Shown here: in pieces, positions 19,566 through 35,393 of the stretch
How positions within the stretch are numbered: position 1 is the stretch's first letter
Layout: each line of letters starts with the position of its first letter
NCBI GenBank assembly: GCA_943789165.1
Contig: CALSTB010000004.1
Span: 1-64,000 of the forward strand
Direction of reading: 5' to 3'
Origin: an uncultured Bacteroidia bacterium
GTDB taxonomy: Bacteria > Bacteroidota > Bacteroidia > NS11-12g > UBA9320
DNA: 64,000 bases
Translations under genes and position numbers: made by a program
The notes under the pieces: generated by a model
What the model was told of the DNA's origin: nothing
The model's input: the letters and a program-made list of their open reading frames with translations, nothing else
Databases searched by the model: none

Positions 19566-19581
19566 TTGGTAGCTCCATTTA

Positions 19582-19609
19582 CCGTGGGATAGTCCCGTAC
19601 ATCGCACGG
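19582..19609 (+). repeat. nested hairpin upstream of the transposase
   Basis: CCGTG (19582-19586) pairs with CACGG (19605-19609), and inside it GGGA-TAG-TCCC forms a second hairpin. There is no T-run. It could mark the left edge of the transposase locus or end the M1 peptidase transcript. Confidence 0.35.
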
Positions 19610-19665
19610 AGAAGTGAATAGTACATTGAATGATTTGCGTGATATGTTGCGCCAAATGTTTCCAA

Positions 19666-20127
19666 TTGGCTAATACGTATACCAAGTTATATATTCAGAT
19701 AGTGTTTGCAGCCAAATACCGCGAACGCTTAATCCATCCATCATGGAAGGTTGAATTGCACAAGTACATGACTGGAATCATCCAAAAACAAGGTCACTTG
19801 CTAATTGCGATTAACGGAGTAGAGGATCACGTTCATATATTGGTGGCGATGAGGCCACATCAATCACTTTCGGATTTGGTTCGTGATGTTAAATCTTGTT
19901 CATCAAAATGGATAAATGAACGAAATCTTTTAAACCATCCTTTTTACTGGCAAAGAGGATTTGGAGCTTTTTCATATACCCCAGAAGCAGTGCCTAATGT
20001 CATACGATACATTGATAATCAAGAAGCACATCATAGAAAGGTGCATTTAAACGAGGAATATAAGAGCATGTTGGAGCATTATGACATCACCTATGAGGAA
20101 CAGTATCTGTTCAAGTTGGAGGATTAA
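19666..20127 (+). CDS. Y1 transposase, IS200/RAYT (REP-associated) type
   Basis: This is a single-domain HUH nuclease of 153 residues (165 from the ATG at 19630). It has the family N-terminus ANTYTKLYIQIVFAAK, the HUH motif in VEDHVHILVAM, and a C-terminal block FGAFSY...VIRYIDNQEAHH, where the Tyr of YIxxQ is the expected nucleophile. Homologues normally begin at the equivalent of MANTYT, which favours the TTG at 19666. It has no tnpB partner. The 185-bp hairpin array just downstream fits a RAYT that acts on REP elements better than a plain insertion sequence. All key motifs are intact. Confidence 0.82.
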   Translation: MANTYTKLYIQIVFAAKYRERLIHPSWKVELHKYMTGIIQKQGHLLIAINGVEDHVHILVAMRPHQSLSDLVRDVKSCSSKWINERNLLNHPFYWQRGFGAFSYTPEAVPNVIRYIDNQEAHHRKVHLNEEYKSMLEHYDITYEEQYLFKLED

Positions 20128-20184
20128 GGGCAGTCAAAGTATCCTTTGTGCCAAGGAATCATCGCGTTGATATCGCATGTGTCA

Positions 20185-20977
20185 CCCCTCTGGGGCAAAC
20201 ATCACTGTGCATCCATTGTGATATGAGGTATGACCGCTCTGCGGCCAATCACAATCAGAAATGATCATTTGCAAACAAAAATGGTCATCGACAATGATAA
20301 ATTTTAGTTGCATTCGACAAGCTCCAGAGGAGCTCCACGCGGCATCGTGAATGATGCAGGATGAAGAGAGCTCCAAAGGGGTAACATCACTGTGCATCCA
20401 TCGTGATATGAGGTATGACCGCTCTGCGGCCAATCACAATCAGAAATGATCATTTGCAAACAAAAATGGTCATCGACAATGATAAATTTTAGTTGCATTC
20501 GACAAGCTCTAGAGGAGCTCCACGCAGCATCGTGAATTATGCAGGATGAAGAGAGCTCCAAAGGGGTAACATCACTGTGCATCCATCGTGATATGAGGTA
20601 TGACCGCTCTGCGGCCGGTCACAATCAGAATTGAACATTTGCAAACAAAAATGGTCATCGACAATGATAAATTTTAGTTGCATTCGACAAGCTCTAGAGG
20701 AGCTCCACGCGGCATCGTGAATTATGCAGGATGAAGAGAGCTCCAAAGGGGTAACATCACTGTGCATCCATCGTGATATGAGGTATGACCGCTCTGCGGC
20801 CGGTCACAATCAGAATTGAACATTTGCAAACAAAAAATGGTCATCGACCATAAAAAAATTTAGCTGCATTCGACAAGCTCCGGAGGATCTCCGCCTATCA
20901 GCATGAGTGAAACAGCCCCAGAGGAGCTCCACCACATAACACCTATGATGCAGAAATGCCTGGCCCCAGAGGGGTCA
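20185..20977. repeat. REP-like hairpin array with 185-bp tandem repeats
   Basis: The segment starting CATCACTGTGCATCCAT recurs at 20200, 20385, 20570 and 20755, an exact 185-bp period. Three units are complete and the fourth degrades after about 20840. Each unit has hairpin A, CCGC-TCT-GCGG (20234-20244 in unit 1), and hairpin B, AGCTCC-AGA-GGAGCT (20320-20334). Their loops are complementary (TCT versus AGA), so A and B are in opposite orientation. The array is bounded by CCCC-TCT-GGGG (20185-20195) and CCCC-AGA-GGGG (20964-20974). Units 1-2 share CCAATC and AAATGATC, while units 3-4 share CCGGTC and AATTGAAC, showing stepwise duplication. No real gene lies within. Confidence 0.85.
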
Positions 20978-20985
20978 AACCTCAT

Positions 20986-35354: not shown

Positions 35355-35393
35355 CCAACACTGTCCGTAGTCTCAGACTACGGACAGTGTTGG
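35355..35393. repeat. 39-bp near-perfect palindrome
   Basis: The 19-nt arm CCAACACTGTCCGTAGTCT and its exact reverse complement are separated by one C. It lies 21 nt past the stop of the DUF2797 gene. There is no T-run on either side, so it is not an ordinary terminator. The right arm of the repeat at 35182-35216 and the left arm here form a terminal inverted repeat pair enclosing about 165 bp. Confidence 0.75.

Follow-up and report, generated by a model that had tools for sequence, protein, structure and literature searches.

What joins a transposase gene to the tandem array of short hairpins that lies directly downstream of it, and what kind of enzyme the gene encodes, are the questions raised by a locus in the window, a stretch of 64,000 nucleotides from an uncultured Bacteroidia bacterium. 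Gene and array together form an extra block of 1.42 kb, bordered on one side by the stop codon of an M1-peptidase-like gene and on the other by that of a uracil-DNA glycosylase gene. In three congeners (L057, L058 and L059) the two flanking genes are near-adjacent, tens of bp apart, and the block is absent, so that it was either gained in the lineage of the window or lost in that of the congeners. A fourth congener (L060, genome G033) carries unrelated genes between the same flanking pair, encoding a VOC-like protein, a membrane protein and an XRE-type regulator, and the intergenic site therefore seems to receive inserts repeatedly.

The open reading frame of tnpA is open from an ATG at 19630 and spans 19630–20127; the TTG at 19666 (MANTYT..., 153 aa) is the probable start, since relatives begin at a matching MxxTYT. 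As originally predicted, the product has the intact HVH and YIxxQ motifs of a Y1 HUH transposase: DHVH, WQ and YIDNQEAHH are all present in an undamaged frame. The protein matched Pfam Y1_Tnp (PF01797) with 93 bits, and its AlphaFold2 model had a mean pLDDT of 86.6. It passed the NCBIfam IS200 model NF033573 (68.3 bits, cut-off 55) and failed REP_Tyr_transpos (27.5 bits, cut-off 80). Judged by its motifs, the window enzyme is a member of TnpA_Y1 subclass 1.2, a group of low-copy Bacteroidota proteins of ~150 aa characterised by DH[IV]H, WQ and Y---Q--HH (Quentin et al. 2018, PMC6006769). All three motifs were found, the last being common to nearly all relatives; the length of 153 aa compares with about 148 aa, and tnpA is single copy in the host genome (assembly 87.7% complete). 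Genes of this subclass were detected at E ≤ 1e-30 in 161 of 392 sampled Bacteroidota genomes. The enzyme had initially been labelled RAYT-like, and that identity (TnpA_REP) was rejected: class 2 TnpA_REP proteins carry a Y---NP catalytic motif (PMC6006769) instead of Y---Q--HH, the REP model scored below its cut-off, and there is no GTAG tag.

Table 1. Features of the tnpA locus, in window coordinates.
Feature	Position	Strand	Basis or remarks
Extra block (transposase gene and hairpin array)	19566..20985	.	Comparison with congeners
tnpA, Y1 HUH transposase, by motifs TnpA_Y1 subclass 1.2 (probable start)	19666..20127	+	PF01797, NF033573, DHVH/WQ/Y---Q--HH motifs, start in relatives
Outer left hairpin CCCC-TCT-GGGG (core 20185), tag GTGTCA toward tnpA	20179..20195	+	
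Tandem unit 1, 185 bp	20200..20384	.	TRF, BLAST, alignment
Second hairpin of left doublet CCGC-TCT-GCGG, 49 bp on, tag GTATGA	20228..20244	+	
Inverted hairpin AGCTCC-AGA-GGAGCT, unit 1	20320..20334	-	
Hybrid junction hairpin CTCC-AAA-GGGG	20371..20381	-	Left context AGA-type; right arm and downstream from outer left hairpin
Tandem unit 2	20385..20569	.	Hairpins 20413-20429 (tagged), 20505-20519, 20556-20566
Tandem unit 3	20570..20754	.	Hairpins 20598-20614 (tagged), 20690-20704, 20741-20751
Tandem unit 4, truncated and diverged	20755..20892	.	TRF, BLAST, alignment
Inverted hairpin CCCC-AGA-GGAG, one mismatch, first of right-hand closing doublet	20916..20926	-	
Outer right hairpin CCCC-AGA-GGGG (core 20964), tag GTTTGA (reverse complement GTTTGACCCCTCTGGGGC)	20963..20980	-	Mirror of outer left

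TRF placed the array at 20198–20892 (period 185, 3.8 copies, 96% matches), downstream of tnpA. The gene, the array, its four unit starts and both bounding hairpins were recovered as first described (Table 1), whereas the claims of exactness and of two hairpins per unit had to be corrected. Identity to unit 1 by BLAST is 98, 96 and 91% for units 2, 3 and 4. Both hairpins ascribed to the unit exist; a hybrid third one closes units 1–3, about 50 bp past the AGA hairpin, and AGCTCC-AGA-GGAGCT is perfect solely in unit 1, with units 2 and 3 reading AGCTCT (a T.G pair) and unit 4 CTCC-GGA-GGAT. Each unit is an inverted pair of hairpin doublets: the hairpins are REP-like and inverted, as the proposed REP/inverse-REP pair had it, while the underlying building block is a direct doublet of ~50-bp pitch. 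Upstream of tnpA, no matching hairpin was found in the window.

The left halves of the units run P, P, Q, Q, with four shared changes, and the right halves x, y, y, z, units 2 and 3 matching each other there (AGCTCT, GAATTATG). The contrast drawn earlier between units 1–2 and units 3–4 thus applies to the left half, while the right halves group units 2 and 3. Because the two halves follow these different series, at least two later duplications would have taken place in different registers; in our reading of the alignment, the pattern P-x, P-y, Q-y, Q-z points to two successive 185-bp duplications. Stepwise duplication was retained from the first interpretation along with the HUH transposase and the REP-like inverted hairpins, and the RAYT label was lost. 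As the junction hairpins are hybrids, the first tandem join, or duplication breakpoint, fell inside a hairpin.

Replication slippage, which is promoted by hairpins and palindromic microhomology, could likewise produce hybrid junctions within a palindromic stem. The array might accordingly be an ordinary tandem duplication, produced by slippage or RecA in hairpin-prone DNA, beside a transposase that took no part or is an inactive remnant of an IS200 element; successive 185-bp duplications explain units 1–4, and the single copy of tnpA fits as well. We nevertheless regard this origin as rather unlikely, given that the reading frame is intact with all its motifs, that hairpins of this family form another array elsewhere in the genome, and that, among one-kb flanks, 54 of 205 beside subclass 1.2 genes contain tandem arrays with a period of at least 30 bp, versus 1 of 190 distant ones, the sequences and periods being unrelated. 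Since the unit sequences in those 54 flanks are unrelated, the arrays recur independently, and a tandem array beside such a gene is not the unusual arrangement it had been taken for. Our best reading is that tandem arrays are a recurrent by-product of REP processing by subclass 1.2 TnpA. We infer that the window array, too, was made by the enzyme, and slippage could be the last step of copy-number growth.

The 185-bp unit has no further DNA match anywhere in the host genome. Tag-aware patterns recovered two sites besides the window array: contig C2 has one isolated doublet, which over 71 bp is 72% identical to that of the window, and contig C7 (C7 96849–97294; L222 1550–1995) has another tandem array, made up of 2.8 copies of 160 bp with doublets 49 bp apart. 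The hairpins are thus not confined to the window. An early reading to that effect was discarded: it came from a scan with the CCAGAGG core (13 versus 9 control matches), which missed the CCRC-TCT-GYGG hairpins later found by the tag-aware search. The DNA fold also encloses the CCGC hairpin in an outer stem of 8 bp, which is not evident in the C7 array and was left unused. That array sits in the gap before an O-antigen-ligase-like gene and is followed by a short repeat with a 7-bp period; no such hairpins are found at this site in four congeners, no transposase lies near the array, and no second tnpA was found in the 87.7% complete assembly. Downstream of the C2 doublet, two short adjacent ORFs (L221 1761–2275) resemble a YefM/Phd antitoxin and a YoeB-type toxin. 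Dispersal within the window's own genome is weak, with two further sites only.

Across the subclass, we examined the flanks of 105 subclass 1.2 genes, defining a hairpin by a 3-nt loop and a stem of at least 5 with at least 4 G/C. Within 100 bp of the gene, hairpin density was 5.7 per kb on the upstream side and 7.9 per kb on the downstream side, and it fell to about 0.1 per kb at a distance of 2 kb. When only ORF-free DNA was considered, there were 6.0 hairpins per kb within 300 bp of the 105 genes versus 0.36 per kb elsewhere in the same loci, a 17-fold difference. A 3-nt-loop hairpin was present within 300 bp at 89 of the 105 loci, compared with 13 of 382 distant windows; the other 16 loci lacked a perfect hairpin within that distance. 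Dinucleotide shuffles of comparable flanks yielded three such hairpins (stem ≥5) in about 63 kb, and loops of 7–8 nt showed little or no enrichment near subclass 1.2 genes. More distant Y---Q--HH proteins (L027–L029, L035, L049, L052 and L053) have few or no such hairpins, and we therefore limit the claim to the branch near alignment A1.

Two separate alignments, one of the hairpins closest to the gene on its upstream side and one of their reverse-complemented downstream counterparts, converged on a single consensus, ARCCCC-[loop]-GGGGY and then GANAT, which on the other strand places ATNTC before the stem. This AT-N-TC tag occupies the position of the GTAG motif in REPs. The window tags (GTnTSA) depart from the group consensus, and in place of a GT[AG]G tag at the hairpin foot we found these two forms and a few GGGTA-type loci. 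At loci L130, L139 and L220 the tag reads GGGTAG or AGGTGG, near the classical GTAG/GTGG, yet the hairpins flank a class 1.2 enzyme. On either side of the gene the tags point towards it (54:10 and 46:9), and 52 of 54 oriented neighbours spaced 45–54 bp apart stand head to tail, forming doublets with a pitch of ~50 bp.

At 22 of 49 loci the closest loops on the two sides of the gene, upstream and downstream, are reverse complements of each other (mean of 7.4 and maximum of 16 in 2000 permutations), and loop agreement is 0.71 within a locus versus 0.47 between loci. Protein identity correlates with the tag (r = 0.34) and the stem (r = 0.54; Mantel p = 0.0005), correlations to which co-inheritance contributes and which shared ancestry alone would produce; with the loop there is no correlation.

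Such hairpins might also be transcription terminators or RNA-stability elements independent of the transposase, given that they are intergenic and often downstream of a coding sequence. The specificity for 3-nt loops, the short stems, the conserved tag, the mirror orientation up- and downstream and the clustering at this one gene type make that highly improbable, and no Rfam match was found in the window region. A hairpin with a perfect 18-bp stem and a 3-nt loop (CCAACACTGTCCGTAGTC-TCA-GACTACGGACAGTGTTGG) lies at 35355–35393 of the window and is probably a terminator.

A degenerate hairpin-plus-tag pattern scanned over the 392 Bacteroidota genomes gave up to 46 matches per genome, versus 0–2 for the reversed pattern. 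Of 96 genomes with a strong match to tnpA, 38 held five or more copies; among the 231 genomes that lacked a match at the threshold used, 13 did (Fisher p = 3e-13, uncorrected for the relatedness of the genomes). Seven genomes (G097, G142, G157, G217, G299, G350 and G464) hold 14–39 tagged hairpins and no subclass 1.2 gene at E ≤ 1e-30; a lost gene, a divergent gene or another enzyme are the options for hairpin-rich genomes of this kind. One genus carries at many sites an element of ~143 bp consisting of two doublets in inverted orientation, whose presence varies at one orthologous site. In the limited literature searched, we found no description of these repeats in Bacteroidota.

In its low-copy gene with flanking REPs, and in the scatter of these REPs over genomes, the system has the arrangement of a REPtron. 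A conventional IS200/IS605 insertion sequence, with the hairpins as its left and right ends and the array as degenerate end DNA, would be in keeping with the IS200 model score, with the inverted hairpins that flank the gene up- and downstream in many relatives and with the absence of the block from congeners. It is improbable all the same, as several hairpins lie on each side, gene-free hairpins are dispersed, and the gene is single copy or divergent, whereas IS200-type gene copies are near-identical. IS200-type elements have single end hairpins, and subclass 1.1 copies are 99.4% identical per genome (PMC6006769); in place of multiple near-identical copies with precise ends, the 87.7% complete assembly has one.

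Taken together, the locus is likely to be a REPtron-like module of TnpA_Y1 subclass 1.2, in which tagged hairpins, arranged in doublets and inverted doublet pairs, would be processed by the enzyme and the array would have arisen by joining of module ends. Best read in this way, subclass 1.2 TnpA would process its own REP family in trans, with binding, cleavage and trans-mobilisation proposed by analogy. By comparison with IS608 and TnpA_REP (PMC8266576), TnpA would bind tag and hairpin on single-stranded DNA, the tag serving as an IS200-style guide; the tyrosine would nick, and ends would be joined between hairpins of one strand, whereby doublets could be cut out, move to new sites or be linked head to tail. 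For the 185-bp array this would mean an inverted doublet pair whose ends were joined inside a hairpin, followed by at least two tandem duplications. These later duplications may have used ordinary recombination, and slippage may drive later changes in copy number.

What is new here is the contradiction of the published absence of REPs from subclass 1.2 and the head-to-tail doublet geometry. A common, little-studied HUH group gains a predicted substrate with a defined hairpin, tag and pitch, and the hairpin system would account for recurring tandem arrays and intergenic repeats in Bacteroidota. The chances seem to us evenly balanced that subclass 1.2 represents an independent Bacteroidota REP system, derived from IS200-like (class 1) transposases and not from TnpA_REP, in which the moving unit is the head-to-tail doublet of ~50-nt pitch, with the geometry of an IS200 end pair and no gene between. 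The origin of REPs and the domestication of a transposase into a REP enzyme could then be compared using a second, class 1-derived system of different geometry.

Subclass 1.2 was reported to be without REPs and generally without IS200-type terminal structures, in a study whose REP search demanded GTAG/GTGG tags and, for short hairpins, stems of at least 7 (Quentin et al. 2018, PMC6006769); in our sample, most members have tagged hairpins at their flanks, and many genomes carry dispersed copies. With the Y1 HUH family elements IS200/IS605 (IS608, ISDra2), which provide the model for hairpin recognition and for the guide tetranucleotide, the system shares an end geometry matched by two same-strand hairpins 50 nt apart, but no gene-containing copies spread as a unit and several hairpins lie on each side. 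The CGTC REPs (Di Nocera et al. 2013, PMC3733652) resemble our system in having a tag that can read TGTC, have likewise been reported from Bacteroidetes and have no known transposase, but they are mostly alphaproteobacterial, with 8–9-bp stems and 4–5-nt loops. REPtrons with GTAG REPs resemble the present system in the short hairpin, 3-nt loop, tag at the foot of the stem, inverted flanking copies, dispersal and low-copy gene, and short group-3 REPs have an 8-bp stem and 3-nt loop in S. maltophilia and a 5-bp stem in Marinomonas (PMC8266576). Most GTAG genomes have few head-to-tail dimers or none (PMC3733652), whereas subclass 1.2 combines a class 1 enzyme without Y---NP, an AT-N-TC tag in place of GTAG, and head-to-tail doublets of ~50 bp.
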